Shown: piece after piece, positions 7,443-31,708 of the stretch
Layout: every line of letters starts with the position of its first letter
Position numbering within the stretch: position 1 is the stretch's first letter
Assembly (NCBI RefSeq): GCF_944380975.1
Contig: NZ_CALWJK010000023.1
Location: 1-33,518, forward strand
Origin: an uncultured Agathobaculum sp.
GTDB taxonomy: Bacteria > Bacillota > Clostridia > Oscillospirales > Butyricicoccaceae
Reading direction: 5' to 3'
Length of the DNA stretch: 33,518 nucleotides
Program-made: the position numbers and the translations under genes
The notes under the pieces: generated by a model
Database searches by the model: none
What the model saw: only the letters and a program-made list of their open reading frames with translations
Told to the model about the DNA's origin: nothing

Positions 7443-7448
7443 GAGAAC

Positions 7449-10474: not shown

Positions 10475-10531
10475 AGGGATTCGCTCCTTTATTTCAAAAT
10501 TTGAATGTTCTGTTTGCGTGGGGCAGCCGGA

Positions 10532-11431: not shown

Positions 11432-11611
11432 GGGATTCCTTCCTTTCGTTTGATGTGTGGCGATCTTGCTTACTGGTTACAGTGTAGCAGTCTGCATGCG
11501 TCTTTTCTTTCAACTTCTTGGGTTTGTTCAAAAAAGTGTGCACAGGAGATAAAATAAAGAAAAACGCTGGGTAAATGCGCAGATTCAATATCAAACAGTG
11601 CCTTGGAAGCG

Positions 11612-11637
11612 GCGCGCCGCACGGAGGGCGGCGCGCT
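11612..11637. other. GC-rich stem-loop between iolI and iolE
   Basis: GCGCGCCGC (11612-11620) pairs with GCGGCGCGC (11629-11637) across an eight-base loop. No T-run follows on the minus strand, which the operon uses; on + it is followed by GAAACGGTGTTTTTT. It may partly terminate transcription or protect mRNA ends within the operon. I see no gene in 11432-11668. Confidence 0.4.
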
Positions 11638-11668
11638 GCGGAAACGGTGTTTTTTGAAAATCCTGCTG

Positions 11669-12499: not shown

Positions 12500-12512
12500 A
12501 TAGCATTCTCCT

Positions 12513-13910: not shown

Positions 13911-13928
13911 GTTCTCGCACCTCCCGGA

Positions 13929-14951
13929 TTATTGGATTTCGCTGAGGCTGACGGGACGATGCTCCTGTAGGGATGTGGCGGCTGCCATGGCGATTTTGAC
14001 CGGCTGAAGGCCATCAAAGCCCGTGACCGGCGTATCGGTGTCGTTCAGGACGGCCTGCGTAAACGCCTTTGCCTCCGCAATAAACGCATTGTTGTATCGC
14101 TCGAGGAAGAACCATGTCGGCTTTGCGATTTCCACGCCGTCGGCGCTCGAGATCATGGCCTGATCGTTCAAGTCGTTGGCAACCTGTACGCAGCCCTTGT
14201 CGCAGTGCACCTCGGTGCGCTGATCGTAGCCGTAATGTGCGGCGCGGCTGTTGTCGATCACGCCGAGCGCGCCGTTTTCAAACTTCATCATCACAATGGC
14301 GGTGTCTACATCGCCGTACTGGTCGTAGCCCGCGCCGGACAGTGCTGCGCCGTATGCGGTGACTTCGGTCACTTCGCTGCCGGCTAGATAGCGGACCATA
14401 TCGAAATCATGGATGGTCATATCCATGAAGATACCGCCGGAAACCTTGATGTAGTCCATGGATTGATGGTCGGGGTCGCGCGAGGTGACTTTGACGATGT
14501 TGGGCTTGCCAAGACGGCCGGAGGCGACGGTGTCGCGCACCATTTTGTGGTTGTGGTCGAAACGGCGCACAAAGCCAACCTGCAGCTTGACACCTGCGTT
14601 CTTGACTGCGTCGAGTGCCTCTTGGATTTTGGCCAGATTGGTGTCGATCGGCTTTTCACAGAAAATATGCTTGCCGGCTTTGGCTGCGCGCATAATAAAG
14701 TCAGCGTGTGTGTTGGTGGAGGAGCAGATAAAGACCGCTTCGATTGATGCGTCGCTGAAAATTTGTTCCGGATCGTCATAGCAGTGGGCAATGCCCATGT
14801 CGGCAGCCCATGCGCGGGTCACGTCGTTCATAAACGGATCAGCAACTGCGTATAGCTCGGCTTCCGGTACGGCATGTGCCAGATTTTCTCCGTGCAGCTT
14901 GCCGATGCGACCAGCGCCTAACAGACCAATACGAACCTTTTTCATTTTCAT
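13929..14951 (-). CDS. iolG: Inositol 2-dehydrogenase IolG
   Basis: The NAD-dependent first enzyme of inositol catabolism, oxidising myo-inositol to 2-keto-myo-inositol. The 340-residue protein has a Rossmann motif LLGAGRIGKLHGEN, CEKPID with the catalytic lysine near 100, GFVRRFDHNH near 127, and MDMTIHDFDMVRYLAGSE with the catalytic Asp-His pair near 175-180. Its order as first gene of a GPH transporter-iolI-iolE operon supports IolG over other Gfo/Idh enzymes. I keep the first ATG (14951) because AAGGAG lies five to six bases ahead; a second ATG two codons in is spaced worse. It is divergent from an AraC regulator across 317 bases. Confidence 0.9.
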   Translation of the reverse strand: MKMKKVRIGLLGAGRIGKLHGENLAHAVPEAELYAVADPFMNDVTRAWAADMGIAHCYDDPEQIFSDASIEAVFICSSTNTHADFIMRAAKAGKHIFCEKPIDTNLAKIQEALDAVKNAGVKLQVGFVRRFDHNHKMVRDTVASGRLGKPNIVKVTSRDPDHQSMDYIKVSGGIFMDMTIHDFDMVRYLAGSEVTEVTAYGAALSGAGYDQYGDVDTAIVMMKFENGALGVIDNSRAAHYGYDQRTEVHCDKGCVQVANDLNDQAMISSADGVEIAKPTWFFLERYNNAFIAEAKAFTQAVLNDTDTPVTGFDGLQPVKIAMAAATSLQEHRPVSLSEIQ

Positions 14952-16208: not shown

Positions 16209-17138
16209 ATGGCACAACAACATTCTCTTAATGTGCAGTGCTTTGTAAAAAAAGAATTTCAATCCATGTTCGTCGGGGAGAATGATCCTCGTCTGCTCTA
16301 TGTCAGCGAGATCCGGCCGGATGCCAGCGCGCACCCGCGTGTGATGCACGCGCATGAGGATTTCGTCGAAATTATTTTGATTTGCAGCGGTTCCAGCGAA
16401 TATCTGATTCACGATAAAAAATATTATATCCAGCCGGGAGATTTGCTGGTCTATAATGCAGGCGTGGTTCACGATGAAATATCTGGGCCGGATATGGAGA
16501 TCGGCAGCTATTGTGTGGCGATCGGCGGGCTGCATATGCCAGGCTTGCGTGCTAATGCACTACTGCCCGATGACGCGGGCTATGTTTTCCCGACAGGGCA
16601 GAGTTTTGGCGACCTGCGTATCCTGTTTGAAATGATGTTCCGCAATCTGGCATCGGGTGAGCCGCGTGCAGAATCATTTTGCCATAGTCTGATGCACGCA
16701 CTGCTGGTTAAGGTGCTGACGGTAACGGATGGAGTGGATGCCATAGTGGAAAAACCGGTGGAGGAACCTCACGTTTTGGGACGGCGCATCAAAGAGTACA
16801 TTGATCGGCACTATATGGAGCCGATTACGTTGCAAAGCATGGGAGAAGCATTGCACATCAGCCCATATTATCTGTCGCACGTCTTCAAACAGATGAGCGG
16901 CTACTCACCGGTGCAGTATCTATTGCGCCGCCGGATCGGTGAGGCACAAACGTTGCTTATTACGACCGATTTGTCTATTACACGGATTGCTGAAATGGTG
17001 GGTTACGATACACAGAGCTATTTCAACCTGCAATTTACCAAAAACGTCGGCATGCCGCCCAATAAGTATCGGCAGAACTACATCGTTGCGCAAAAGGAAC
17101 AAGGCGGGAGCGCAAATAAGAAACGAAAAAAGAAATAA
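16209..17138 (+). CDS. AraC family regulator with cupin sensor domain (type B of a regulator pair)
   Basis: A 309-residue AraC protein. The N-terminal cupin holds HAHEDFVEIILICSGSSEY and GDLLVYNAGVVHDEISG. The C-terminal double helix-turn-helix has YIDRHYMEPITLQSMGEAL, then RRRIGEAQTLL and IAEMVGYDTQSYFNLQF. The tail is strongly basic (KKRKKK). It shares AraC organisation with the gene before it but is closer to the AraC at 31721-32617 than to its neighbour, judged by the cupin block. AAGGAGGGA lies upstream of the ATG. It lies 85 bases after the first AraC and ends at a strong terminator, so the two are probably co-transcribed. Confidence 0.87.
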   Translation: MAQQHSLNVQCFVKKEFQSMFVGENDPRLLYVSEIRPDASAHPRVMHAHEDFVEIILICSGSSEYLIHDKKYYIQPGDLLVYNAGVVHDEISGPDMEIGSYCVAIGGLHMPGLRANALLPDDAGYVFPTGQSFGDLRILFEMMFRNLASGEPRAESFCHSLMHALLVKVLTVTDGVDAIVEKPVEEPHVLGRRIKEYIDRHYMEPITLQSMGEALHISPYYLSHVFKQMSGYSPVQYLLRRRIGEAQTLLITTDLSITRIAEMVGYDTQSYFNLQFTKNVGMPPNKYRQNYIVAQKEQGGSANKKRKKK

Positions 17139-17990: not shown

Positions 17991-19943
17991 ATGAGCAAAA
18001 CAAGAATGACTGTTGGTCAGGCAATCGTCAAGTTTCTTAATCAGCAGTACATCGAAATGGACGGCAAGGTAGAACCGTTTGTAGACGGTATTTTCACCAT
18101 TTTCGGCCACGGCATGGTAGTCGGCCTCGGGCAGGCACTTGAGGAGGACCCGGGCCATCTCCGGGTCTATCAGGGCCGCAACGAGCAGGGCATGGCGCAC
18201 GCTGCGATCTCTTACGCCAAGCAGCACAACCGCCGCAAGATTATCGCCTGCTCGTCCTCGATCGGCGTAGGCGCAGCCAATATGGTGACTGCAGCGCTGA
18301 CTGCGACCATCAACAACATTCCGCTGCTTCTGTTCCCGTCCGATTCCTTTGCAACCCGTCAGCCAGACCCGGTACTTCAGCAGCTTGAGGTGCCGACCGA
18401 CCTTTCCATGACTGCTTCCGACTGCTTTAAGCCGGTGGCCAAGTACTGGGATCGCGTGACCCGCCCCGAGCAGCTGATGAGCGCGATGATCAATGCGTTC
18501 CGCGTGCTGACTGATACGGCAAACTGCGGCACCGCGGTCATCTCTATGCCGCAGGATGTACAGGGTGAGAGCTTTGATTTCCCGGATTATTTCTTCCAGA
18601 AGCGCGTACATCACGTTGCTCGCCGTGTTGCCGACGATTATGAGATCAATCAGGCAGTGGAGCTGATCAAAGCTTCCAAGAAGCCGATGTTCATCTCGGG
18701 CGGCGGCGTGCGCTACTCCGAGGCCGGCGAAACCGTGATGGAGTTTTGCAAGGCATTCAACATTCCGGTATCCCAGACGCAGGCCGGCCACTCCGCGCTG
18801 CCGGATTCCTTTGAACTGTCGGTTGGCGGCATTGGCGTTACCGGCGGTCTGGCAGCCAATGCGTTGTGCAAGGATTGCGATTTGGTGATCGGCGTTGGCA
18901 CACGTTTCAACGATTTTGTCACCGGTTCCAAGTGGGTACTGTTCCGAAATCCGGATATTAAGGTGCTGGCGATCAACACCTCCGAGTTCCACGCAGAAAA
19001 GTTGGACGCGACGCGCTGTGTCGGCGATGCCAAGGTAACGCTTGAAGCGATCATGGCGAAGCTGAAGGAAGCAAATTATAAGACTGCCTATACCGATGAG
19101 ATCGACAAGATTCGCAAGGTATGGGAAGAGGAGCGTCTGCGCGTGCTGGGCGTACAGTATCATGGCGAAGGTTTTGGCGAGGGCAAGTTTGTGCCGTGCG
19201 TACCGAGCTGGACCGAGAAGATCATGAACGATTTCATCAACGACATCGGCGGTACGATCACCGAGTCCAACGCAGTCGGTATTCTGCGCGAGGAGATCGA
19301 CGACGATGCGATCGTAGTTGCAGCAGCAGGTTCACTGCCGGCGGATCTCGAGCGTCTGTGGGTCACCGATGCAAAGGATTCCTACAATATGGAATACGGC
19401 GCATCCTGCATGGGCTATGAGATTGCCGGTGCGCTGGGCTCCAAGCTGGCTCAGCCGGACAAGGAAGTGTATGCGCTGGTGGGCGACGGCTCCTTTATGA
19501 TGCTCAATTCGGAGATTCCGACCGCGATTCAGGAAAACGCCAAGATTACAGTTGTGGTATTTGATAACGCGGCGTTCGGCTGTATTAACAACCTGCAGAT
19601 GGGCAATGGTGTCGGTACACTGGCGACCGAAATGCGTCACCGCAATGAGGAAACCGGCAAGCTGGATGGCAAGTACTGCTACACCGACTTTGCCAAGGTG
19701 GGCGAGGGTTACGGCATGAAGGGCTTTACCGCCAAGACGCCGGAGGAATTCCGCCAGGCAGTGCGCGCGGCGAAGCAGGAAAAGGGCTCGTGCATCATTG
19801 ATGCCAAGGTGCTGCCCAAGACCATGGCAGAGGGTTATGAATCTTGGTGGCATATTGGCGTGGCTTCCACCTCGAAGTCGGCGGCGGTGCGGGAAGCCCG
19901 CAAGCGGATTGATGACCACCTGGCAGAAGCGAGAATGTACTGA
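17991..19943 (+). CDS. iolD: 3D-(3,5/4)-trihydroxycyclohexane-1,2-dione hydrolase IolD
   Basis: IolD uses thiamine diphosphate to open the ring of the diketone made by IolE, giving 5-deoxy-D-glucuronate. The 650-residue length is right for the family. The catalytic glutamate is E65 in YQGRNEQGMAHAA. The TPP/Mg motif is G498-D499-G500 SFMMLNSE followed by VVVFDNAAFGCIN about 25 residues later. Other IolD-like stretches are FPSDSFATRQPDPVLQQLE near 121 and ISGGGVRYSEA near 240. GAGGAGG precedes the ATG at good spacing. It opens the + strand operon; iolB follows after a 248-base gap that holds hairpins. Identification is secure. Confidence 0.95.
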   Translation: MSKTRMTVGQAIVKFLNQQYIEMDGKVEPFVDGIFTIFGHGMVVGLGQALEEDPGHLRVYQGRNEQGMAHAAISYAKQHNRRKIIACSSSIGVGAANMVTAALTATINNIPLLLFPSDSFATRQPDPVLQQLEVPTDLSMTASDCFKPVAKYWDRVTRPEQLMSAMINAFRVLTDTANCGTAVISMPQDVQGESFDFPDYFFQKRVHHVARRVADDYEINQAVELIKASKKPMFISGGGVRYSEAGETVMEFCKAFNIPVSQTQAGHSALPDSFELSVGGIGVTGGLAANALCKDCDLVIGVGTRFNDFVTGSKWVLFRNPDIKVLAINTSEFHAEKLDATRCVGDAKVTLEAIMAKLKEANYKTAYTDEIDKIRKVWEEERLRVLGVQYHGEGFGEGKFVPCVPSWTEKIMNDFINDIGGTITESNAVGILREEIDDDAIVVAAAGSLPADLERLWVTDAKDSYNMEYGASCMGYEIAGALGSKLAQPDKEVYALVGDGSFMMLNSEIPTAIQENAKITVVVFDNAAFGCINNLQMGNGVGTLATEMRHRNEETGKLDGKYCYTDFAKVGEGYGMKGFTAKTPEEFRQAVRAAKQEKGSCIIDAKVLPKTMAEGYESWWHIGVASTSKSAAVREARKRIDDHLAEARMY

Positions 19944-20033
19944 TATCCCGTTCTCCTATTTTTCTTCCATGGCTCTCTCACGAATTGATAGTGCATTCTC
20001 CCAATCATTTCTCTTTCATTACCACCCGCAAGG

Positions 20034-20057
20034 CAGCGCGTGCTGTGGCACGCGCTG
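20034..20057. other. Stem-loop in the iolD-iolB gap
   Basis: CAGCGCGTGC (20034-20043) pairs perfectly with GCACGCGCTG (20048-20057) around TGTG. No T-run follows, so it is not a classical terminator; mRNA end protection or processing is more likely. Confidence 0.4.
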
Positions 20058-20121
20058 TCCGACGGGACGGTCAGAGCATGGAAATAGATGAGGAACGATT
20101 CGGTACTGAATATAAATTTGG

Positions 20122-20155
20122 TATAATGCAGCCGCCCGTTATGAGCGGGCGGCTG
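20122..20155 (+). promoter_or_regulatory. Possible internal promoter and 5' stem-loop before iolB
   Basis: A perfect TATAAT (20122-20127) lies just before a 10-bp stem CAGCCGCCCG / CGGGCGGCTG (20129-20138 with 20146-20155). The -35 region is poor (TTCGGT at 17 bases). If active, the RNA would start within or beside the hairpin. It could uncouple iolB and the downstream genes from iolD. Confidence 0.35.
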
Positions 20156-20191
20156 TTTGCTGCCCAAAAACAGGAGAAAGGAGCAAAAAAT

Positions 20192-20983
20192 ATGAAATAC
20201 ACAAGCAAAGGGCCGTTTGAAAAAGGCTACAACAAGATGATCTCCGCTGTGGAAAATCCGGAGATGATGGGGATGGAATTTGGCGTGGTTAAAATGGCGG
20301 CGGGCGACGTGCTGCATTTTGACTACGCGCAGGAGGTTGTGTATGATCTGCTTTCCGGTAAAGTGACCTTTGAATGGGACGGTAAAATCGAATCGGTCGA
20401 GCGCAGTGACTGCTTCCACGAAGGTGCGGTCCTGCTGCATGTGCCGCAGAACACCAAGGTGTCTGTTTTTGCAAAGCAGGACACCGAGATTGCTGTCGTA
20501 CGCACCGAGAACAAGCGCAGCTTTGCAGCCCGCTTGATGCGTCCGGAGGATTGTCTGTGCGCCAATGAGGAGCGCGGCGCAGGTCAGATGAACGAGTGCT
20601 CTACCCGTCTGGTACGCACCTTCTTTGATCGTTCCAACTGCCCGGAAACCAATTTCTTTATCGGGGAAGTGGTGCATTTTCCGGGGAAGTGGTCCTCTTA
20701 TCCGCCGCACCAGCATGTAGAGCCGGAGATGTATTACTATAAATTTTTGCCGGAAAATGGCTATGGCCTTGCGGAGTACGGCGATGACGCATATAAAGTA
20801 AAAAACAACGACCTGACCGGTATGCCGTGCAATGTGACTCATTCGCAGGCGGCAGCGCCCGGCTATGCGGAGTATTATCTGTGGTGCATCCGCTTGCAGG
20901 ACGACAAGAATATTGTTACCACCACGGTGAAGGAATACGAGTGGGTAACGGCACCAGACGCAAAGTACTTCCCGGATATCTGA
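20192..20983 (+). CDS. iolB: 5-deoxy-glucuronate isomerase IolB
   Basis: IolB converts 5-deoxy-D-glucuronate into 2-deoxy-5-keto-D-gluconate. This 263-residue bicupin protein shows the family block FPGKWSSYPPHQHVEPEMYYYKF in pieces: WSSYPPHQH with metal ligands H173 and H175, then E180 and the YYY strand. The first cupin contains GDVLHFDYAQEVVYDLLSGK. The start at 20192 follows AAGGAGC at eight bases; a longer open frame upstream (to 19985) is not needed and overlaps the hairpins. Its product is the branch point: the usual kinase IolC is missing, and the next genes are C4-acid and transketolase enzymes. Confidence 0.9.
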   Translation: MKYTSKGPFEKGYNKMISAVENPEMMGMEFGVVKMAAGDVLHFDYAQEVVYDLLSGKVTFEWDGKIESVERSDCFHEGAVLLHVPQNTKVSVFAKQDTEIAVVRTENKRSFAARLMRPEDCLCANEERGAGQMNECSTRLVRTFFDRSNCPETNFFIGEVVHFPGKWSSYPPHQHVEPEMYYYKFLPENGYGLAEYGDDAYKVKNNDLTGMPCNVTHSQAAAPGYAEYYLWCIRLQDDKNIVTTTVKEYEWVTAPDAKYFPDI

Positions 20984-21002
20984 GGAAAAGGAGGCAAATC
21001 AA

Positions 21003-22124
21003 ATGAAAGCCTTTCAAATCATGCCTGCTGTTGCGGAATATACGGATTTTGGTACGATGGCGCAGGAATTGAACCTTGGCGCGCGCGATCTGATCCTGAC
21101 CAACGAGTACATCTATAACCCGACGATCGCTGCGCTGAACCTTGGCTGCCAGACCTGCTTTCAGGAAAAATATGGCGCGGGCGAGCCGACAGACGTGATG
21201 GTGGATGCCATTTTGGACGATCTGCGCGATAAAGCGTATGACCGTATTGTTGCGGTCGGCGGCGGCACAGTCATCGATATTGCGAAAGTGCTGACCGTGG
21301 CGCGCCCGGAGGACCGTGTAGACGACCTGTATGACCGCATGGCAGACCTGCAAAAGGAGCATCCTCTCATTATCGTGCCTACGACCTGCGGCACGGGCAG
21401 CGAGGTGACCAATATCTCGATTATCAACCGCACAACCAAGGGCGTCAAAGTCGGGCTGGTGTCCCCTGCGATGTTCGCAGACGAGGCGGCTTTGGTGCCC
21501 GCGCTGCTGCAAAGTCTGCCGTATTCCGTGTTTGCCACCTCGTCAATCGACGCGATGGTGCATGCGGTGGAAAGCTATCTCAGTCCGAACGCCTGCGCGC
21601 TCAGCGAGCTGTTTTCGGAAAAGGCGTTGCAGCTGATCCTGCGCGGCTGGAAGCAGGCAGTTGCATCCGGACGTAAGGACGGCTGGAAGCAGTACGCACT
21701 GGAATTTTTGCGCGCGTCCAACTTTGCGGGTATCGCGTTTGGCCATGCAGGCTGCGCAGCGGTGCATGCGATGGCCTATCCGCTCGGCGGCGTGCACCAT
21801 ATTCCGCACGGACAGGCAAATCAGCTGATGTTTGCCGATGTTATGCGCAAATATCAGGAGAAAAAGCCAATCGGCAAGCTCAACCAGCTTGAGGAGATCC
21901 TGTCTAAGGAATTGGAAGTCGAGCCGGTATTTGCTCTGGAAAAGCTGTACGCGCTGATGGATGAGGTGCTGAAAAAGGACCCGCTGCGCGAGCACGGTGT
22001 GACTGCGGAAGAGCTGCCGGACTTTGCGCGCAATGTCATTGAAACACAGCAGCGCCTGCTGGGCAACAACTATGTGGAGCTGACCGAGAACGATATCCTT
22101 TCGATCTACCGCGCGGCGTTTTAA
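21003..22124 (+). CDS. 4hbD: Iron-containing alcohol dehydrogenase, 4-hydroxybutyrate dehydrogenase-like
   Basis: A 373-residue group III (Fe) alcohol dehydrogenase very like Clostridium 4-hydroxybutyrate dehydrogenase, which reduces succinate semialdehyde to 4-hydroxybutyrate. Shared stretches include FILTNE-like LILTNEYIY, FQEKYGAGEP, GGGTVIDIAKVL (NAD binding, glycines 86-88), IVPTTCGTGSEVTN, and the metal ligands D183 and H187 in SSIDAMVHAVESY plus the histidines of AVHAMAYPLGGVHHIPHG. It starts 19 bases after iolB with AAGGAGG upstream. No succinate semialdehyde source (sucD) is present. I infer that its real aldehyde here may be 3-hydroxy-4-oxobutanoate; the family assignment is secure, the substrate is not. 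Confidence 0.88.
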   Translation: MKAFQIMPAVAEYTDFGTMAQELNLGARDLILTNEYIYNPTIAALNLGCQTCFQEKYGAGEPTDVMVDAILDDLRDKAYDRIVAVGGGTVIDIAKVLTVARPEDRVDDLYDRMADLQKEHPLIIVPTTCGTGSEVTNISIINRTTKGVKVGLVSPAMFADEAALVPALLQSLPYSVFATSSIDAMVHAVESYLSPNACALSELFSEKALQLILRGWKQAVASGRKDGWKQYALEFLRASNFAGIAFGHAGCAAVHAMAYPLGGVHHIPHGQANQLMFADVMRKYQEKKPIGKLNQLEEILSKELEVEPVFALEKLYALMDEVLKKDPLREHGVTAEELPDFARNVIETQQRLLGNNYVELTENDILSIYRAAF

Positions 22125-22139
22125 GCGGGGAGGACAGGA

Positions 22140-23447
22140 ATGGATTGGAGAAGTTATTATAAGGAACATACAATGACGCCGGAGCAGGCGGTCGGTATGA
22201 TCCATGACGGCGACCGCGTGGTGTTTGGCCATGCGGTGGGTGAGCCGATCATCTTCCAGCGCACAATGGCGAACATGGCGGAGCAGTTTCATAATGTGGA
22301 AGTCGCGCACATGGTGTATCTCGGCTCGGGCGATTATTTGCAGCCCGGCATGGAAAGCCATTTCCGTCATAATGCCCTGTTTGTGGGCGGCGCGGCGCGC
22401 AAGCCGATTGCAGAGCACCGCGCGGACTATACGCCGGTATTCTTTTCGGACGTACCGCGTATGTTCCGGGATGGGACGTTGCCGGTGGACGTGTTCGCGT
22501 TCACCTGCTCGCCGCCGGACGAGCGCGGATATGTGTCGCTCGGTCTATCCTGCGACTATGGTGCACAGGCGGTCAAGTCTGCCAAAACGGTCATTGCAGA
22601 GGTTAATCCGAATATGCCGCGCACCTATGGTGAGAGCTTTGTGCATGTGTCCGAAATTGATGGGTTTCTGTGTTCATGGGAGCCGCTGCCCGAATCCGCT
22701 CCGGCGAAAATCTCGGAGGAGGATCGCCAGATTGGCAAGTATATCGCGGATCTGGTGCGGGACGGCGACTGCCTGCAGCTTGGTATCGGCGCGCTGCCGG
22801 ATGCAGTGTGCTCGTTCCTCGGGGACAAAAAGGACCTCGGCCTGCACACCGAAATGATCTCGGACGGTGTGCTGCCGCTGCTGGAAAGCGGTGTCATCAA
22901 TGGCAAGCGCAAGCAGCGTGATGTGGAAAAGGTGTGCGTCACCTTTTTAATGGGTACACGCCGACTGTATGATTATGTGGACAACAACCCGATGATCCGC
23001 ATGCTGCCGGTAGATGTGTGCAACAATCCGGCCATCATCTCACAGAATGATAACGTGGTATCCATCAATTCGTGCGTTGAAGTGGATCTGCAGGGGCAGG
23101 TATGCGCGGAAGCGATCGGCTTGCGGCAGATCTCGGGTATCGGCGGACAGATGGATTTTGTGCGCGGCGCGAACCTGTCCAAGGGCGGACGCTCGATCAT
23201 TGCGCTGCATTCGACGACCAAGAATGAATCGGCGTCCAAGATCGTCACTACGTTAACGACTGGCGCGCCGGTCACGACCAGCCGCTGCGATGTCAACTAC
23301 ATCGTGACCGAATACGGTGTCGCGCAGCTTCGTGGACAGACATTGCGCGAGCGTGCCAAGCGTCTGATTGCAATTGCGCATCCCAAGTTCCGCGCAGAAC
23401 TGGCGGAGGAGTATGCGCAGCGTTTTGGAGAAAAACTGACGGTTTAA
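22140..23447 (+). CDS. cat2: 4-hydroxybutyrate CoA-transferase-like protein
   Basis: A 435-residue family I acyl-CoA transferase (acetyl-CoA hydrolase/transferase fold) resembling AbfT/Cat2. The catalytic glutamate is E238 in GLHTEMISDG, the same position as in the Clostridium aminobutyricum enzyme. Glycine-rich LQLGIGALPDAV (213-224) and GIGGQMDFVRGA bind CoA. It would activate the hydroxy acid from the preceding dehydrogenase with CoA from acetyl-CoA or butyryl-CoA, at no ATP cost. It lies 15 bases after the dehydrogenase and 22 before the dehydratase, so these three are a functional unit. The substrate may be 3,4-dihydroxybutyrate rather than 4-hydroxybutyrate. Confidence 0.88.
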   Translation: MDWRSYYKEHTMTPEQAVGMIHDGDRVVFGHAVGEPIIFQRTMANMAEQFHNVEVAHMVYLGSGDYLQPGMESHFRHNALFVGGAARKPIAEHRADYTPVFFSDVPRMFRDGTLPVDVFAFTCSPPDERGYVSLGLSCDYGAQAVKSAKTVIAEVNPNMPRTYGESFVHVSEIDGFLCSWEPLPESAPAKISEEDRQIGKYIADLVRDGDCLQLGIGALPDAVCSFLGDKKDLGLHTEMISDGVLPLLESGVINGKRKQRDVEKVCVTFLMGTRRLYDYVDNNPMIRMLPVDVCNNPAIISQNDNVVSINSCVEVDLQGQVCAEAIGLRQISGIGGQMDFVRGANLSKGGRSIIALHSTTKNESASKIVTTLTTGAPVTTSRCDVNYIVTEYGVAQLRGQTLRERAKRLIAIAHPKFRAELAEEYAQRFGEKLTV

Positions 23448-23469
23448 CCGGAAAGAAGGATATGCAATT

Positions 23470-24915
23470 ATGATGACAAAAGAACAATACATTGCGTCGC
23501 TACGGACGCTGCATCTTAATCTGTACCGCTTCGGGGAAAAGGTAGAAAACGTGGTGGATGATCCGATCGTCCGTCCGTCGCTCAATTCCTTTGCCGCGAC
23601 TTATGAACTGGCGGAGGACCCGCAGCATGATGACCTGATGACAGCCACCTCCAATCTCACAGGCAAAAAGATCAACCGATTCACGCACCTGCATCAGTCT
23701 GCAGATGATCTGATTCGCAAGGTTAAGATGCAGCGCCTGCTGGGTCAAAAGACGGCGGCATGCTTCCAACGCTGCGTGGGTTTGGACGCGGCAAACGCTG
23801 TTTACTCCACGACGTATGAAACCGATGAGACTTGCAGCACCAAGTACCACGAGAATTTCAAGAAGTTTTGGACGGATGTGCAGGAAAACGACTGGGCGGT
23901 CGATGGTGCGATGACCGACGTCAAGGGCGACCGCGGGCTGTCTCCGTCCCAGCAGGCGGACCCCGATCTGTTCCTGCATGTGGTAGAACGCACGCCAGAT
24001 GGCGTGTATGTCACGGGCGCCAAGGCGCACCAGACCGGTTATCTGAACAGCCATTATGTGCTGGTGATGCCGACGATCTCGATGCGCAAAGGCGACGAGG
24101 ATTATGCGATTTCGTTTGCCTGCCCGACTGACGCGGAGGGTATCACGCTGATTCTCGGTCGTCAGTCCTGCGACACCCGCAAGACCGAGGAATACAACGA
24201 CATTGATGTGGGTAATAAAGTGTACGGCGGCCATGAAGTGCTGGTCATCTTTGACCGCGTGTTTATCCCGAACGAGATGATCTTCCTCAACGGCGAGGTG
24301 GAGTTTGCCGGAATGATGGTGGAGCGCTTCGCGGGATATCATCGTCAGAGCTACGGCGGCTGCAAGGTTGGCGTGGGCGACGTGCTGATTGGCGCGACTG
24401 CGCTTGCCACCGAAATGGCGGGCTGTGCGAAGGCAAGCCACGTCAAGGACAAGATCATCGAGATGACGCATCTGAACGAAACACTGTACTGCTGTGGTAT
24501 TGCGTGCTCATCTCAAGGCACCAAGACCAAGAGCGGCAACTACCTGATCGATCTGCTGCTGGCGAATGTCTGCAAGCAGAACGTCACGCGCTTCCCGTAT
24601 GAGATCGCGCGGCTCGCGCAGGACCTTGCGGGCGGTATCATGGTGACCCAGCCGTCTGAGGCGGATTACCGCAACCCGGCAACGCATGACTACATTGAGA
24701 AGTATCTCAAGGGTGTGGCTTCCGTTCCGACCGAGGATCGTATGCGCGTGCTGCGTTTGATTGAGAACATGACGATGGGCACAGCTGCTGTCGGCTATCT
24801 GCCCGAGTCCATGCACGGTGCCGGCTCGCCGCAGGCACAGCGCATCATGATTGCGCGGCAGTCCAATCTGGAGCAGAAGAAAAAGCTTGCCAAAGAGATC
24901 GCGCGTATTCAATAA
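23470..24915 (+). CDS. abfD: 4-hydroxybutyryl-CoA dehydratase-like [4Fe-4S]/FAD enzyme
   Basis: AbfD dehydrates 4-hydroxybutyryl-CoA to crotonyl-CoA by a ketyl-radical mechanism using FAD and an unusual [4Fe-4S] cluster. The 481 residues keep all cluster ligands: C98 and C102 in CFQRCVG, H291 in AGYHRQS and C298 in YGGCK, each one residue below the published C. aminobutyricum numbering. GAMTDVKGDRGLSPS, AKAHQTG, SFACPTDA and GRQSCDTRK are also typical, as is the terminal ESMHGAGSPQAQ. The segment after NSH (YVLVMP) differs from the Clostridium enzyme as I remember it, and this loop lies near the flavin. In this operon it may act on 3,4-dihydroxybutyryl-CoA. The enzyme is oxygen-sensitive, which fits a strict anaerobe. 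Confidence 0.93.
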   Translation: MMTKEQYIASLRTLHLNLYRFGEKVENVVDDPIVRPSLNSFAATYELAEDPQHDDLMTATSNLTGKKINRFTHLHQSADDLIRKVKMQRLLGQKTAACFQRCVGLDAANAVYSTTYETDETCSTKYHENFKKFWTDVQENDWAVDGAMTDVKGDRGLSPSQQADPDLFLHVVERTPDGVYVTGAKAHQTGYLNSHYVLVMPTISMRKGDEDYAISFACPTDAEGITLILGRQSCDTRKTEEYNDIDVGNKVYGGHEVLVIFDRVFIPNEMIFLNGEVEFAGMMVERFAGYHRQSYGGCKVGVGDVLIGATALATEMAGCAKASHVKDKIIEMTHLNETLYCCGIACSSQGTKTKSGNYLIDLLLANVCKQNVTRFPYEIARLAQDLAGGIMVTQPSEADYRNPATHDYIEKYLKGVASVPTEDRMRVLRLIENMTMGTAAVGYLPESMHGAGSPQAQRIMIARQSNLEQKKKLAKEIARIQ

Positions 24916-24923
24916 ACCAAAGG

Positions 24924-24960
24924 ACAAGCGCCCGTCCGAAGGCATCGGGCGGGCGCTTGT
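24924..24960. other. Strong stem-loop between abfD and the transketolase genes
   Basis: ACAAGCGCCCGTCCGA (24924-24939) pairs with TCGGGCGGGCGCTTGT (24945-24960), 16 pairs with one G-U, around a five-base loop. There is no T-run, so transcription probably continues and the hairpin may set the relative amounts of the two halves of the operon. Confidence 0.5.
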
Positions 24961-24983
24961 TAGCATCACTAAAGGAGGAAATT

Positions 24984-25835
24984 ATGGATCAGCAGAAATT
25001 GCATGAGCTTCGCGTATTCGCGGCGGAAATCCGTCTGGAAACATTGAAAATTATCGGCTCGCGTGGTTTTGGCCATGTCGGCGGCTCGATGTCCATGGCC
25101 GACACAATGGCGGTTCTGTACGGCGCGGTGATGAATATTGACCCGAAAAACCCGCGCTGGGAGGGTCGGGATTGGTTTGTGCTCTCCAAGGGCCACGGCG
25201 GACCGGTCATGTATGCAACATTGGGCCTGAAGGGTTATTATCCAATCGAGAATGCTTATACGCTCAATCAGCCGGGCACGGACTTTCCGTCCCATACCGA
25301 CCGCAATAAGACAGTCGGCGTTGATTTGACGACCGGATCGCTTGGTCAGGGTATGAGTGAGGCGGTTGGTGCGGCGCTGGGCAGCCGCGTGCAGGGTCGT
25401 GACAATCATGTGTTTGTGGCAATTGGTGACGGCGAAGCGGATGAGGGTCAGATATGGGAGGGCGCGCAGTTTGCCGCGCATTACCAGTTAGATAACCTGA
25501 TCTGTCTGGTGGATGACAACAAACGGCAGTTGGACGGCGCGGTGGCGGACGTGATGAGCCACGGAAAGGGTATTGGTGCCAAATTTGATGCGTTTGGCTG
25601 GAACGTCATCAATGTTGCGGATGGCAATGACATTGAGCAGATTTATGATGCGCTGCAGCAGGCCTGCGCCTGCAAGGGCAAGCCGAGTTGCCTGATCCTG
25701 AATACGGTCAAGGGCAAGGGCGCGACTTTTGCCGAGCCTTCGGGCGCGCACTCCTCGCAGCCGACGCAGGAGCAGTGGGACGAGGCGATTGCCGCAGCGG
25801 AAGCAGCGCTGGAAGCGGTAAAGAACGAACAGTAA
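24984..25835 (+). CDS. Transketolase, N-terminal (TPP-binding) subunit
   Basis: The N-terminal half of a split transketolase, 283 residues. It has the family stretches GHVGGSMSMADTMAVLYG, LSKGHGGPVMYA, TGSLGQGMSEAVGAALG and the TPP motif GDGEADEGQIWEGAQFAAH followed by LVDDNKRQLDG. The start at 24984 has AAAGGAGG at seven bases. Split transketolases serve the pentose phosphate pathway or special ketoses; a known precedent is SqwG of the sulfo-transketolase pathway. Its place at the end of the iolD-iolB operon suggests that it cleaves the iolB product, with glyceraldehyde 3-phosphate as acceptor giving xylulose 5-phosphate. It could equally be a plain housekeeping pair that happened to land here. 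Confidence 0.9.
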   Translation: MDQQKLHELRVFAAEIRLETLKIIGSRGFGHVGGSMSMADTMAVLYGAVMNIDPKNPRWEGRDWFVLSKGHGGPVMYATLGLKGYYPIENAYTLNQPGTDFPSHTDRNKTVGVDLTTGSLGQGMSEAVGAALGSRVQGRDNHVFVAIGDGEADEGQIWEGAQFAAHYQLDNLICLVDDNKRQLDGAVADVMSHGKGIGAKFDAFGWNVINVADGNDIEQIYDALQQACACKGKPSCLILNTVKGKGATFAEPSGAHSSQPTQEQWDEAIAAAEAALEAVKNEQ

Positions 25836-25849
25836 GGGAGGGGAAAACG

Positions 25850-26818
25850 ATGAGCGTAACATTGATTGGCAAACATGAGAAGGACAGCCGCGCGAACCGC
25901 GACGGCTATGTGGAAGCCATGCTGGAGATGATGGCGGAAAACAAAAAGCTGGTGCATATCGACTGCGATCTGATGGGCTGCATCAACACCGGAAAGCTGC
26001 TAAAGGCATTCCCCAAGCGGACTTTTAACGCAGGCATTGCGGAGCAGAACGCGATGGGCGTTGCTGCGGGCATGGCAGCGACCGGTCTAACGGCCTTTGT
26101 ACATTCGTTCGGCTGCTTTGCCTCCCGCCGTATGTTCGATCAGGCATTTTTGGCGGCGGGCTATTCCGAACTGCCGGTGCATGTCATCGGCTCCGACCCC
26201 GGCGTAACGGCGGCATTCAATGGCGCAACCCACATGCCGTTTGAGGACTGCGCCCTGTATATGACTATCCCGAACGCGGTCGTTATTGACTCGTGCGACA
26301 TTGCGCAGACCAAATCGCTGACCAAGAAGCTGGCGGCGGATAACCGCCCGTCCTATATGCGTCTGATTCGCAAGACGTTCACCACTGTGTATGCAGACGG
26401 ATCAGAGTTTGAGATTGGCAAGGGCGTTACCCTGCGCGACGGCAAGGACGTGACGATCATTGCGTCCGGCATTCTGCTGGACGAGGCGCTCAAGGCACAG
26501 GAGCAGCTGGCACAGCAAGATATCTCCGCGCGTGTAATCGATATGCACACATGGAAACCGCTGGATGACGAACTGGTTCTAAAAGCAGCTGCCGAAACAG
26601 GCTGCATTGTGACCGCGGAAAACCATCAGGTTTCGTGCGGTTTAGGCTCAGCTGTGGCTAATTTGCTTGCGGCAAAGTGCCCGATACCGCTCGAGCGTGT
26701 TGGTATCCAGAACCGTTTCGGCCAGGTTGGCCCGCAGGATTTCCTAATGCAGCAGTACAAACTTACGGCTGCGGATATTGTGGCTGCGGCTTGTCAGGCG
26801 ATAGCAAGAAAACAGTAA
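25850..26818 (+). CDS. Transketolase, C-terminal subunit
   Basis: The C-terminal half (322 residues) of the split transketolase, holding the pyrimidine-binding and C-terminal domains. AGIAEQNAMGVAAGMAATG contains the conserved glutamate that activates TPP. HSFGCFASRRMFDQ, GSDPGVTAAFNGATHMPFED and AENHQVSCGLGSAVA are typical. The start at 25850 follows GGGAGGGG. It begins 14 bases after the N-subunit gene, so the pair is co-translated, and it ends the operon at a 17-bp terminator. Histidines that bind the donor's phosphate in normal transketolases should be compared with SqwH-like enzymes, since a carboxylate-bearing ketose is proposed. Confidence 0.9.
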   Translation: MSVTLIGKHEKDSRANRDGYVEAMLEMMAENKKLVHIDCDLMGCINTGKLLKAFPKRTFNAGIAEQNAMGVAAGMAATGLTAFVHSFGCFASRRMFDQAFLAAGYSELPVHVIGSDPGVTAAFNGATHMPFEDCALYMTIPNAVVIDSCDIAQTKSLTKKLAADNRPSYMRLIRKTFTTVYADGSEFEIGKGVTLRDGKDVTIIASGILLDEALKAQEQLAQQDISARVIDMHTWKPLDDELVLKAAAETGCIVTAENHQVSCGLGSAVANLLAAKCPIPLERVGIQNRFGQVGPQDFLMQQYKLTAADIVAAACQAIARKQ

Positions 26819-26873: not shown

Positions 26874-28055
26874 TTAGTTTGCTGCTTCACTCGCGGGAAA
26901 ATCGAGCGGCAGGGGAGCGGGACGCTCAAAGGTGGTTTCCGGTTCGCAGAAGATGTGTTCATGCGCAGACTTGAGGATACATTCCATCACTTCCAGCGAA
27001 TGTAGCGCCATATCGCCCGAGGCGCGCGGCGTGCGGTGCTGCGCAAGAGCATAGACCATATCCACCAGACCGATGCCGCGCGGGTTTTCCGCATGGCTGA
27101 CCGAGTTGAACGGATGCTTGTTAGGGACGACGGTCCACGAGGTGTTTACGTGCGCGGGATTGCGGTCGGGGGCTGCCCAGCGGTATTCTGCGGGGGTGCG
27201 CAGCAGCGTGTCGCCGCCGAACAGGTTGGGGCCGGAAATCGGGTCCTTTTCGTCGATCAGCACGGTGCCTTCCGTGCCGTACAGCTCCATGCGCGGCATT
27301 TCGGAATCCCATACGTCAAAGCTGCAGGTCAGCGTGACGATCGAACCGCAGGCAAATTCCAGAATGGCGTTGATGTGGGTATCCACATCAACGGGCAGCA
27401 CTTGTCCCTTGCTGGGACCGGACGGGACTGTGCGGGTGTCGGCGGCCTTGGTGGCCATCGCACAGACGCGCCGCACCGGACCGAGCAGGCTGAGCAGCGC
27501 GGTCATGTAGTACGGCCCCATGTCATACAGCGGGCCTGCGCCGGGCTGATAGAAAAAGGCGGGTGCAGGGTGGTGAAATTCGTGCCCGTGTCCAATGAAG
27601 TAGGCGCCGCCACCGGTGATACGGCCGAGCTTGCCGCTGTCGATCAGCTCACGGATGGTCTGCAGGCGGCCGCCTAAAAAGGTATCCGGTGCGCAGCCGA
27701 TCAGCAGCCCCTTTTCCTTTGCCAGCGTGACCAGCTCCTTGCCTTCTGCATAGGTCATGGCGAGTGGCTTTTCGGTATAGACATGCTTGCCGGCCTTGAG
27801 CGCTGCAAGGTTGTATTCATAGTGCGCCTGCGGCGTGGTCAGGTTGAGGATCAGGTCGACTTCCGGATCGGCAATGACTTCTGCGCCCGAGGCATACGCC
27901 TTGGGGATGCCATGCTGCGCGGCCTTGCGCTGCGCTTTTTCCAGTCCGCGGGAGGCGCATGCAATCACCTCGACCGCATCATATTTTTTCAGATTGTTCA
28001 AATAAACATCGCTGATATCGCCAATACCGATGACGCCAACACGAATTTTTTTCAT
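26874..28055 (-). CDS. Gfo/Idh/MocA family oxidoreductase (inositol locus, third copy)
   Basis: A 393-residue NAD(P)-dependent dehydrogenase. The Rossmann start is GVIGIGDISDVYLNNL, YTEKPLAMT carries the catalytic lysine (near 97), and GPLYDMGPYYMTALLSLLG has a Asp-x(2)-x-Tyr version of the usual active-site pair, unlike the His found in IolG. It is longer than IolG because of an insert near 200-300. This group usually acts on sugars, inositol derivatives or inosose; I cannot say which. It has its own consensus promoter and lies alone between two stem-loops, so it is regulated separately from the operon at 28208-31411. Confidence 0.8.
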   Translation of the reverse strand: MKKIRVGVIGIGDISDVYLNNLKKYDAVEVIACASRGLEKAQRKAAQHGIPKAYASGAEVIADPEVDLILNLTTPQAHYEYNLAALKAGKHVYTEKPLAMTYAEGKELVTLAKEKGLLIGCAPDTFLGGRLQTIRELIDSGKLGRITGGGAYFIGHGHEFHHPAPAFFYQPGAGPLYDMGPYYMTALLSLLGPVRRVCAMATKAADTRTVPSGPSKGQVLPVDVDTHINAILEFACGSIVTLTCSFDVWDSEMPRMELYGTEGTVLIDEKDPISGPNLFGGDTLLRTPAEYRWAAPDRNPAHVNTSWTVVPNKHPFNSVSHAENPRGIGLVDMVYALAQHRTPRASGDMALHSLEVMECILKSAHEHIFCEPETTFERPAPLPLDFPASEAAN

Positions 28056-28207: not shown

Positions 28208-29341
28208 TTATTGCATTTCGGAAACCTTAACCCAGCGGCCTTCGCGCGCGGAGGTCGCCATCGCTTCGAGAATCGTATCGACATAGTGACCATAAGCGAT
28301 GTCAATTTTCACCTTGCGGTCTTCCGTGATGGCGGTCAGGATATCATGCGCCTGAATCGACATGATTTCGTTGTACGCAATGCCTTGCTCATCCGTGCCG
28401 CAGAAGTTAGCATAATCGCCGTTGCGCGTGTTGCCCTTAATGATTTTGTAGCCGCGTTCCTTGGGATCGCAGTCATTGGAGTAGTACAGCAGTTCGTTGA
28501 TGCGCGTCATCTCAAACTTGACCGAGCCCTTGCTGCCCTGAATCTCGTAAGCAAGGCTGACCGGACGCGCAACCGAGACACGGCTGGAGGACATCGAACC
28601 GATGCGTCCGTCCTCATACTTGACGATCACATAGATCTGGTCGTCCGTATCAATGTCCAGCGTTTTGGACGGATCGCGTGCGTCCGGGCGCTGCTTGTAC
28701 GGGGTATCCCAAGACGCAAACACCTCGACGATCTTCTTGCCGACGATCATGTCGGACAGGCTGACCACATGCGCGGTCAGGTCGCCCAGCGCGCCGGTAC
28801 CTGCAGTTGCAGCAAGCTGGCGCCAGGTTGCCGGAGTGTTCGGGTCTGCGCAGTAGGAGCAGTCGAATTCGCCGCGGAAGGTGACAAAATCGCCCAGCTT
28901 GCCGGAATCCATCAATTCCTTTGCCAGCACATTGGCCGGGCATTTGGTGTAGATGAAGTCGACCAGACTCTTGACGCCTGCTTTTTCAATCGCGTCTACC
29001 ATCGCCTTGCCCTCGGCCAGCGTGTTGGCCATTGGCTTTTCGCACAGGATATGCTTGCCTGCCTCAGCAGCAGCGATCGCGATTTCCGCATGGGTGAAAT
29101 TGGGCGTTGCGATGATGACCAGTTCTACTTCCGGATCGCTGATGACGTCATGCCAGTCGATGGAGACTTTCTTATAGCCGAAGCGCTCCGCGGCCAGCTT
29201 GGCTGCCGCTTCGTTGACATCTGCGACATGCTCAAATACCGGTTCCACATCATGATAGGCCTGACGAACGTTGTTTAAGCCAATGGAATGGAAGCTGCCC
29301 ATCCAGTTCGCGCCAATCAGACCGACTTTTACCTGTTTCAT
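28208..29341 (-). CDS. Gfo/Idh/MocA family oxidoreductase (inositol locus, fourth copy)
   Basis: A 377-residue NAD(P)-dependent dehydrogenase. The Rossmann fold begins GLIGANWMGSFHSIGLNNV, CEKPMANTL gives the catalytic lysine, and TGALGDLTAHVVSLSDMIVG carries the Asp-x(3)-His active-site pair seen in inositol dehydrogenases. It is the last gene of an operon behind an IolE/MocC-like protein and a sugar-binding lipoprotein. The pairing with inositol genes suggests an inositol isomer or an inosose as substrate. I cannot tell it from a glucose- or rhizopine-type relative by eye. Confidence 0.82.
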   Translation of the reverse strand: MKQVKVGLIGANWMGSFHSIGLNNVRQAYHDVEPVFEHVADVNEAAAKLAAERFGYKKVSIDWHDVISDPEVELVIIATPNFTHAEIAIAAAEAGKHILCEKPMANTLAEGKAMVDAIEKAGVKSLVDFIYTKCPANVLAKELMDSGKLGDFVTFRGEFDCSYCADPNTPATWRQLAATAGTGALGDLTAHVVSLSDMIVGKKIVEVFASWDTPYKQRPDARDPSKTLDIDTDDQIYVIVKYEDGRIGSMSSSRVSVARPVSLAYEIQGSKGSVKFEMTRINELLYYSNDCDPKERGYKIIKGNTRNGDYANFCGTDEQGIAYNEIMSIQAHDILTAITEDRKVKIDIAYGHYVDTILEAMATSAREGRWVKVSEMQ

Positions 29342-29391: not shown

Positions 29392-30393
29392 TTAGCCCAG
29401 CAGAGCGTTCAGATAATCCAGACGCTCCTGCGCGGTGTCCTTATCGATTACGGTTGCGTCAACGGAGATGTTCTCTTCCACGTCCTCGTTGTTGATCGCC
29501 TGAACCGCAGCTTCTACCGATTTGTAGCCCAGATCATAGCAGTCGTAAGCAACGGAAAGGGTCTCTTCGCCTACCAGAATGGACTCACACGCTGAGCTGA
29601 TGCCGTCAAACCCAAGGAAAATCGTGTTTGCATATGCAGCATGTCCGCTGGCGGTGCGGGCAGCAGCCATTGCCATATCGTCGTTATTGCAGGCAATAAT
29701 CGCAACGCCTTCAGGATGGTTCTGCATAATCGCTTCCATCGAGTTTGCAGCCTTGTCTGCGACTGCATCAGCATATTGGATTTCGGTTTCGAGGAAGTCG
29801 CCGCCAGCGTCTTCAATGCCTTCCTGATAGCCGGTCAGGCGTGCGGTTGCGGTATTGTCACCCTGTACGCCGGAGATGGCGATCGCGGTGATGTTCTCCC
29901 AACCGGCCTGCTCAGCAGCGATTACGGCAGCTTCTGCGCCGAGCTTCGCTGCGGCCTCCTGGTCGATGCCGACAAAGGAGACAATCTCAGGGGCGTCAAT
30001 TCGGGTATCTAAGTTGATGATAGGGATATCCTGACCGGAAATCAGTGTTTTGACCAGATCTGCCTGTAGAGGCGCGATGACTATTGCGTCATAAGTGCCG
30101 GAGTGCAGATCGGTTTCGATCATATTCTGTTGTTCATCGTATGCGGTTTCGGAGCTGGGTCCCTTTACATCCACATTAACCTCGGGGTGGTCAGTCTCAT
30201 ACGCCTCGGCACCGGCAACGACATACTGCCAGTATTCCGAAGCGGTCGTTTTGAGGATGACACTAACCGAGCAAGTGGTATCCGCGGTAGTGCCAGATGT
30301 GGTGTCATCGGTGTTGGTGGTGTTACTGCCACATGCAGTGATGCTCATCATCAGTGCGCTTGCCATCAGTGCGGCCAATAATATCTTCTTCAT
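29392..30393 (-). CDS. Sugar-binding lipoprotein (type 1 periplasmic-binding protein)
   Basis: A 333-residue secreted lipoprotein. The signal peptide (MKKILLAALMASALMM) ends in a lipobox ITA-C21, followed by a Ser/Thr/Asp-rich linker to about 40. The mature part has the RbsB/Peripla_BP_4 fold: SVILKTTASEYWQYVVAGAEA, DAIVIAPLQADLVKTL, INLDTRID, ISGVQGDNTATARLTGYQEG, ACNNDDMAMAAARTA and FLGFDG. It would capture a sugar or inositol outside the membrane. No ABC permease or ATPase gene occurs in this window, so the protein is an orphan here and must share a permease encoded elsewhere or serve as a sensor. It is in an operon with an epimerase upstream (88-base gap) and a dehydrogenase downstream. 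Confidence 0.88.
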   Translation of the reverse strand: MKKILLAALMASALMMSITACGSNTTNTDDTTSGTTADTTCSVSVILKTTASEYWQYVVAGAEAYETDHPEVNVDVKGPSSETAYDEQQNMIETDLHSGTYDAIVIAPLQADLVKTLISGQDIPIINLDTRIDAPEIVSFVGIDQEAAAKLGAEAAVIAAEQAGWENITAIAISGVQGDNTATARLTGYQEGIEDAGGDFLETEIQYADAVADKAANSMEAIMQNHPEGVAIIACNNDDMAMAAARTASGHAAYANTIFLGFDGISSACESILVGEETLSVAYDCYDLGYKSVEAAVQAINNEDVEENISVDATVIDKDTAQERLDYLNALLG

Positions 30394-31411: not shown

Positions 31412-31708
31412 ATTCGTTACTCCTTTACCAGTGTTTATGTGTGCGGATTGACAATTTTCCTTGGTGTATCCATTATTGCGCATCCGTCCGTTTTTTGCTT
31501 CTACAAAACAGCGGGATTCTTTATAAAAGTTCACAAATATTTCAGCGGAGAGAAAGTGTGGCAAATTGGGAAAACGATATACTTCTGATTAGGATTGGCT
31601 GCTGTCGGCTGCATTGGTTCAAAATAGTCTTTAGATGGGATGCAGCGCCTGATTGTGCGATTTTACAGCAGGAAATTGTATATTTCTGCTTTGAGTGGGA
31701 TAGAAACA
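31412..31708. other. Non-coding region upstream of the IolE/MocC-like operon
   Basis: No gene is supported here. A TTGACA at 31448-31453 with CATTAT 17 bases on is a weak + promoter with no gene to serve. I see no clear minus-strand promoter for the operon; an AraC-dependent one without a good -35 is possible. Confidence 0.3.

Follow-up and report, generated by a model that had tools for sequence, protein, structure and literature searches.

How could inositol be broken down beyond 2-deoxy-5-keto-D-gluconate (DKG), the IolB product, when the kinase and aldolase genes of the usual pathway do not lie beside iolD and iolB? This question is raised by an operon at 17991-26818 of the window, by which we mean the whole analysed stretch of 33,518 nucleotides (contig NZ_CALWJK010000023.1, assembly GCF_944380975.1) from an uncultured Agathobaculum sp. 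The canonical iol pathway is IolG-E-D-B-C-J-A, represented here by locus L061, and the window shares its upper half, IolG, IolE and IolD together with an IolB-like protein. It differs in that neither the DKG kinase IolC nor the semialdehyde dehydrogenase IolA was found over cut-off in the window genome, and we propose a transketolase (TK) in place of kinase and aldolase, which would give C4 + C2 products rather than C3 + C3. We consider it likely, from the genes and their distribution, that the operon encodes a transketolase-based inositol pathway with a reductive C4 branch toward butyrate.

The operon consists of seven complete open reading frames (ORFs), all on the + strand. The first, iolD (17991..19943), encodes the thiamine pyrophosphate (TPP)-dependent trihydroxycyclohexanedione (THcHDO) hydrolase of ring opening and scores 866.7 bits against TIGR04377 (cut-off 715). 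It is followed by an iolB-like 5-deoxyglucuronate isomerase gene (20192..20983), which encodes 263 amino acids from the ATG at 20192. In the mechanical ORF list this frame starts earlier, at TTG 19985, and the methionine at 20192 is aligned in 11 of 11 rows. The protein passes Pfam PF04962 (KduI/IolB; 164.6 bits) and reaches 96.4 bits against the NCBIfam equivalog TIGR04378 (cut-off 205), and is thus a divergent IolB. The third gene encodes an iron-type alcohol dehydrogenase (ADH; 21003..22124; PF00465/PF25137), a putative malate-semialdehyde (3-hydroxy-4-oxobutanoate) reductase. Its closest solved relative is Cvir-Hbd2 (352 bits), a name that we read as pointing to 4-hydroxybutyrate dehydrogenase. 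The CoA-transferase (22140..23447; PF02550/PF13336), proposed to activate 3,4-dihydroxybutyrate, scores 349.4 bits against TIGR03948 (cut-off 674.8) and is butyryl-CoA:acetate CoA-transferase-like at the subfamily level only. The HpaB/AbfD-family protein (AbfD; 23470..24915), a candidate 3,4-dihydroxybutyryl-CoA dehydratase, has 4-hydroxybutyryl-CoA dehydratase (1u8v; 739 bits, full length) as its best PDB match. Cys/Cys/His/Cys, which we take to be the [4Fe-4S] cluster ligands, are identical in the alignment. The last two genes encode a split transketolase, the N-terminal TPP subunit TkN (24984..25835; PF00456) and the C-terminal subunit TkC (25850..26818; PF02779/PF02780). Both resemble solved split transketolases, as the TkC model matches 6yaj (361 bits) and TkN of the sister locus L066 matches 6yak (252 bits). 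The intergenic gaps are 248, 19, 15, 22, 68 and 14 bases, there are no internal stops, and a purine-rich stretch lies 5' of every start. The gene order and gaps given by the sequence-only reading, made from the letters and their ORFs, were exact.

That reading had also stated that the window holds no iolC, iolJ or iolA, and indeed none of these families was matched among the 29 window ORFs scanned. The whole assembly is 2.34 Mb in 88 contigs and 91% complete. No IolC over cut-off was found in it, the best score being 197 bits (cut-off 300) for a fructokinase-like PfkB gene, which reaches 223 bits with the fructokinase model and misses the cut-offs of both models. An iolC elsewhere in this assembly was thus rejected, as was an iolA, for which the best score was 20.6 bits (cut-off 448.5).

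The proposed route is as follows. IolG, IolE, IolD and IolB would convert inositol to DKG, a carboxylate that is analogous to a D-threo ketose phosphate. From DKG, the split transketolase would take C5-C6 and pass them to glyceraldehyde 3-phosphate; the products would be xylulose 5-phosphate and (R)-3-hydroxy-4-oxobutanoate (malate semialdehyde). ADH would reduce malate semialdehyde to 3,4-dihydroxybutyrate, the CoA-transferase would form its CoA ester, and loss of the 4-hydroxyl, catalysed by the AbfD homologue, would yield 3-hydroxycrotonyl-CoA, which is acetoacetyl-CoA in its enol form and would feed butyrate and acetate. Xylulose 5-phosphate would be turned into glyceraldehyde 3-phosphate again by phosphoketolase or the pentose phosphate pathway; the genome has a phosphoketolase gene (610 bits), whose product could release acetyl phosphate from xylulose 5-phosphate along with glyceraldehyde 3-phosphate. 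Every catalytic step is a prediction, built on observed gene content, order and conservation, on the absence of IolC and IolA over cut-off and on the clade and loop of the transketolase. The TK step is the best supported of these predictions, and dehydration of the dihydroxyacyl-CoA is plausible and more open. In electron bookkeeping, DKG (22) equals the C4 aldehyde (14) plus acetate (8), the conversion of the aldehyde to butyrate takes 6, and IolG supplies 2. The electrons do not balance if the whole C4 half becomes butyrate, and therefore acetate and CO2 have to be formed as well, for example 2 butyrate + 4 acetate + 2 CO2 from 3 inositol. The earlier claim that the C4 half feeds butyrate is supported for the reductive branch and needs this amendment for the yield.

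The transketolase belongs to a distinct group. In a tree of 35 TkC rows, the 26 rows from inositol loci or ADH-TK modules (including L146 and L161) formed one clade with 100/100 support. Outside it were two rows from loci of glyceraldehyde-3-phosphate dehydrogenase (GAPDH), two long-branch rows (L168 and L047) and five others, three of them from the window's own genome. For the residue comparison, the clade was set against these five, with the GAPDH-locus rows kept apart and L168 and L047 left out. His and Asp of 6yaj and 6ha3 are replaced by D117 and N125 in all 26 clade rows, which also carry R94 beside the usual Arg. Positions 117 and 125 presumably correspond to H461 and D469 of the E. coli enzyme, residues tied to the donor phosphate and the acceptor hydroxyl. 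Twelve further TkC rows, drawn from high-scoring matches, had D117/N125 without exception. A clade-signature TK also adjoins an IolD-like TPP enzyme and an IolA-like dehydrogenase in L184 (G518), perhaps an operon for another ring compound; the IolD-like enzymes of G518, G583 and G739 score 307-325 bits, far under the IolD cut-off of 715.

TkC of this kind goes together with IolD across genomes. IolD is over cut-off in 28 of 391 class genomes (two draws treated as one set) and in 12 of the 15 genomes with a high-scoring TkC (P 5e-13); the line for high TkC, 459 bits, was set after the scores were seen. When the seven model-training genomes were removed, IolD was found in 5 of 8 high-TkC genomes versus 21 of 384 (P 1.5e-5). 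TK and IolC, on the other hand, appear to exclude each other at the locus. Among 30 IolD loci outside the own genome, TK occurs at seven, IolC at 13 and both at none (P 0.0096); here the L079 tkN match (37%, 160 amino acids) was scored as no TK, and weak tkC matches (28-35%) in L168, L169 and L124 were left uncounted. None of these P values is corrected for kinship. Counted by genome, the 28 IolD carriers include 12 with high TkC, 12 with IolC at the iolD locus, one with both and five with neither. The single genome with both is Clostridium tyrobutyricum, in which they lie at separate loci, and in G567 the high-scoring TkC lies about 600 kb from iolD. The IolC model, applied to 30 chosen genomes, scored over cut-off in 4 of the 22 that are TK-type and in all 8 that are canonical, the latter having been selected for their iolC.

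The sequence-only reading had called for a search for the same gene order in other genomes, and the order was found. An IolB 79-100% identical to that of the window occurs in 10 of 394 genomes of the order, own genome included, and the next best is 39%. The complete order iolD-iolB-ADH-CoA-transferase-AbfD-tkN-tkC is present in L044, L050, L104 and L113, and L046 and L052 have the same run with an IolG-like gene inserted before tkN. Partial runs were seen in L045, L047, L048, L049 and L051, among nine order loci fetched besides the own one, and in G342 the second half lies on a separate contig (L145). The closest named relative found, Candidatus Agathobaculum merdavium (L104), is 97-99% identical across the seven operon proteins. 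Among named iolB-type loci, ADH adjoins iolB on the same strand in 17 of 22, by which a stray single cluster or assembly artefact was ruled out. TK genes are present in nine of the 22 (L104, L106, L110, L113, L114, L116, L118 and Clostridium L120 and L122), while several others stop at contig ends. At least eight of the 22 duplicate order-survey contigs (L044/L106, L045/L111, L046/L110, L048/L115, L049/L112, L050/L116, L052/L114 and L090/L120), and hence the two counts are not independent. Because the order recurs in other genomes, the gene run is not due to chance.

The reductive set recurs in Agathobaculum, in Butyricicoccus-like metagenome-assembled genomes and, as a variant, in C. tyrobutyricum. 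In the last, iolD-iolE-iolG-iolB-tkN-tkC are followed on the same strand by a 466-amino-acid ORF, an IolG-like gene, another 466-amino-acid ORF, a Gfo-like gene, ADH, a phosphofructokinase, AbfD (73%) and a CoA-transferase (56%), and its proteins are 45-73% identical to their window counterparts. Intestinibacillus massiliensis has a window-like iolD-iolE-iolG-iolB run (L121), a clade TK beside another iolB and a malic enzyme (L158), and AbfD and CoA-transferase at L142 and L143; a search of this genome with the IolC model gave nothing over cut-off.

The AbfD proteins point to the same association having arisen more than once. In the AbfD tree, the C. tyrobutyricum protein groups with 1u8v (97/95), whereas the Agathobaculum inositol AbfDs, including that of the window, form a separate clade (100/98) beside paralogues, one of which, from the own genome, lies near an amino-acid-type transporter. 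Because they fall apart in the tree, two AbfD lineages seem to have become linked to inositol TK genes. Support for the reductive C4 branch thus comes from the presence of ADH, CoA-transferase and AbfD beside an inositol TK in two families, with AbfDs of different lineages. At the site aligned to 1u8v chain position 230, other AbfD paralogues and both solved enzymes have Tyr, and the inositol-linked AbfDs have Leu (Agathobaculum) or Ile (C. tyrobutyricum); Val is found in a C. algifaecis AbfD copy away from its iol locus. A related module without iol matches nearby is present in L146 (G336, 3716-14851). It reads ADH-tkN-tkC-Zn-ADH-AbfD-CoA-transferase, with its TK in the inositol clade, and next come an SSF transporter and a glycyl radical enzyme resembling pyruvate-formate-lyase. 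Possibly a different sugar acid enters the same C4 route here.

Besides the reductive set, a second, chemically different gene set accompanies the same TK subfamily at inositol loci. In G355, from another family, the run is iolE-iolB-iolD-iolG-GAPDH II-phosphoglycerate kinase (PGK)-malate racemase-tkN-tkC-malic enzyme. Genes of these kinds lie with iol genes in L066, L067, L073, L086, L091, L092 (the same locus as L182), L166, L167 and L180, some of which do not have one or more members within the DNA covered. The two racemases scanned exceed the cut-off of 500 for the equivalog NF052593 (LarAH6), with 548.9 bits in L057 and 588.1 in L066. Mar2, a member of the LarAH6 family, racemises malate, according to the part of the source consulted (PMC7583248). 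By Fischer projection, we infer that the TK product of DKG has the configuration of D-glyceraldehyde 3-phosphate, with a carboxylate replacing the phosphate, and that it would oxidise to D-malate. Racemase and malic enzyme fit this, because D-malate needs a racemase before an L-specific malic enzyme, and the sister set would be what oxidation of malate semialdehyde via D-malate to pyruvate needs. In the PGK, the K that ends the HxGK motif of the references 2cun and 4dg5 is D or S in 8 of 8 aligned proteins, and in the GAPDH, HHGPD of two solved references is replaced by HQA[LV]D in 8 of 8. These changes would agree with a substrate without the usual phosphate, short of proof. Therefore, cleavage of the IolB product to malate semialdehyde, as first proposed from the window, is now supported by a second gene set for the same product, by a TK clade that tracks iolD and by the finding of TK and iolC together at 0 of 30 iolD loci.

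The GAPDH II module is not confined to inositol loci. A strong GAPDH II match (63-85%) was found in 8 of 398 genomes of the phylum, with some matches on short contigs; because two of them lie with iolB/iolD and four with TK, the module seems to serve other inputs as well. In other families, L168, L169, L170 and L172 have GAPDH II and PGK without iol matches, with malate racemase in L168-L170, and there the malate-semialdehyde module may serve further substrates. In L066, a DUF1638 protein (1147-1893) follows the malate racemase of this GAPDH-II-type inositol operon.

Several findings weigh against the pathway in the form proposed. The cluster is incomplete in some relatives; in A. desmolans (L111) its start is followed by a broken CoA-transferase and by 8 kb with no AbfD or TK match, and L109 runs on past the CoA-transferase with no match to either. 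In I. massiliensis the genes lie dispersed at separate loci, and the AbfDs group with other paralogues outside the inositol clade. Seven of the 12 further D117/N125 rows come from genomes without IolD over cut-off, and thus the signature marks a wider subfamily. In G012, which is one of these IolD-less genomes, the D117/N125 TkC is the single TkC match at E<=1e-40, and in G312 both close TkC matches are in the clade, the only other match being a distant one of 28%. The clade may therefore also serve other substrates or the pentose pathway, and the idea that it is exclusive to inositol is ruled out by G012 and other IolD-less carriers of the signature. Conversely, the L100 TK lies outside the clade and also adjoins an iolB. 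IolB and the CoA-transferase of the window score below equivalog cut-offs, and the substrates proposed for both are thus tentative. The own assembly is fragmented and incomplete, it has three class II aldolases (PF01116), all on other contigs, and four of the 22 TK-type genomes (G715, G336, G259 and G221) keep a canonical iolC at a separate locus.

The aldolases and the retained iolC genes would suit canonical chemistry with displaced parts, in which an overlooked kinase and a class II aldolase elsewhere process DKG and the TK carries out triose and pentose exchange. IolJ-type activity is possible because the three aldolases exist; the genome search for iolC and iolJ suggested by the sequence-only reading thus gave no IolC over cut-off but candidate aldolases. 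The PfkB kinase, at 197 bits with the IolC model, could be the missing partner. However, this kinase scores better as a fructokinase, if below cut-off there too, IolC over cut-off is missing from 18 of the 22 TK-type genomes and present in all the chosen canonical ones, and canonical chemistry gives no reason for GAPDH II, PGK, malate racemase and malic enzyme to accompany TK. We regard this as very improbable. Nor is it likely that two separate systems merely adjoin, a truncated inositol cluster and a pentose-phosphate TK with a 4-hydroxybutyrate (γ-aminobutyrate (GABA)/succinate) fermentation module. 4-Hydroxybutyrate/GABA fermentation uses AbfD (1u8v), 4hbD and Cat on C4 acids, the same three enzyme families as in the window, and the second AbfD of the own genome (88% identity) adjoins an ADH (42%) and amino-acid-type ABC transporter genes. 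But the run is found in two families although their proteins have diverged, TKs of the same clade accompany inositol genes in other families at loci that have no AbfD match, and the Agathobaculum inositol AbfDs form their own clade. In contrast to that fermentation, the window enzymes would act on 3-hydroxylated substrates and lead to acetoacetyl-CoA, not crotonyl-CoA. A somewhat less remote alternative, although still doubtful, is that TK cleavage occurs as proposed and the C4 product has another fate; malate semialdehyde would be oxidised or dihydroxybutyrate excreted, and AbfD and Cat would serve 4-hydroxybutyrate. The own genome has what seems to be one second inositol-TK locus at the ends of two contigs that stay unjoined, C33 (iolD, iolB, TkN) and C4 (TkC, malic enzyme, IolE), a gene set corresponding to intact loci in L099 and L101. 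Since TK and malic enzyme occur there with iolD, iolB and iolE, this organism may use an oxidative branch as well. On the other side, ADH, CoA-transferase and AbfD lie in the same run here and with an inositol TK in C. tyrobutyricum, and the phylum search gave no GAPDH II match in the own genome (G000).

Taken beyond this operon, the transketolase-based route with its reductive branch leads to a wider proposal, toward which we lean with less confidence. A TK subfamily with a remodelled pocket would serve general carboxylate-ketose catabolism in anaerobic Firmicutes by cleaving DKG and other 5-keto-deoxyhexonates. The product, malate semialdehyde, is isosteric with glyceraldehyde 3-phosphate and would then be reduced through a dihydroxy acyl-CoA dehydratase to acetoacetyl-CoA and butyrate, or oxidised with ATP gain by GAPDH II and PGK paralogues acting as malate-semialdehyde dehydrogenase and malyl-phosphate kinase, and this mode of catabolism would supply the inositol-to-butyrate route that is missing for the human gut. 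A close known system is the sulfo-TK SqwGH, compared here by its description. As described in the sections consulted, it is likewise a TPP TK that cleaves a non-phosphorylated ketose with an anionic tail, the C2 unit can go to glyceraldehyde 3-phosphate, and Clostridia then use a PF00465 alcohol dehydrogenase (PMC9594981). It differs in its sulfofructose substrate and in a second TK round yielding a C2 sulfonate, and those sections mention no CoA-transferase, AbfD, racemase or malic enzyme (PMC9594981); the window TK lies with iol genes. Anaerostipes also ferments inositol anaerobically with a CoA-transferase in the lower part, but via 3-oxopropionyl-CoA to propionate, and transketolase is unmentioned in the portion of the text covered (PMC8355322).

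The gut-bacterial inositol-to-butyrate pathway was described as not yet fully characterised in the consulted part of a 2025 review, which names Dysosmobacter welbionis and, from unpublished data, I. massiliensis as converters (PMC12482443). The 22 named loci analysed here include none from Dysosmobacter. In a faecal culture of donor B, 13C6-phytate gave 13C4-butyrate and 13C2-acetate, and Butyricicoccus was among the abundant taxa of the unlabelled phytate enrichment; donor A, which formed 3-hydroxypropionate and propionate, likewise had Butyricicoccus (excerpts of PMC7618129). This labelling is compatible with both a C4 + C2 split and condensation of acetyl-CoA. No inositol-transketolase pathway was found in one open-access library by titles, abstract starts and term counts, a scope outside which subscription papers and preprints lie. 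The operon thus offers a gene-level hypothesis for butyrate formation from inositol by some gut bacteria, and its carriers are A. butyriciproducens DSM 100391, C. tyrobutyricum and, with the genes dispersed, I. massiliensis. Should the hypothesis hold, dietary phytate and inositol would be tied to butyrate, and a second transketolase-type route for non-phosphorylated acids would stand beside the sulfo-TK. Genes that would be annotated as GAPDH, PGK, transketolase or 4-hydroxybutyryl-CoA dehydratase would become candidates for other substrates, and genome-based predictions that equate a missing iolC with inability to use inositol would need correction.

The operon is flanked by further genes of inositol type, namely four IolG-like dehydrogenases, two IolE-like TIM barrels, a transporter, a sugar-binding protein and AraC-type regulators. 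The AraC-family regulator at 16209..17138 (+; PF12833/PF02311) is probably the local one, and its counterpart (75-90% identity) lies 5' of iolD in L044, L051 and L105-L108. All the others listed here are on the - strand. Upstream are a Gfo/Idh/MocA (IolG-like) dehydrogenase (9458..10474; PF01408), which adjoins IolE-like genes in L106 and L118, an IolE-like TIM barrel (10532..11431; PF01261), with counterparts of 66% (L120) and 90% (L121) within iolD-iolE-iolG-iolB runs, an MFS_2 sugar/cyclitol transporter (12513..13910; PF13347) and a second IolG-like dehydrogenase (13929..14951; PF01408). Downstream are a third IolG-like dehydrogenase convergent with the operon (26874..28055; PF01408), a fourth (28208..29341; PF01408), which with 294 bits does not reach the NF052479 cut-off of 650, a sugar-binding protein (29392..30393; PF13407) and a second IolE-like TIM barrel (30482..31564; PF01261). 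At the start of the window, 13-5074 encodes a type I restriction specificity domain, an M78 peptidase, an AAA ATPase and a phage-type integrase, probably a defence or mobile segment close to the inositol region.

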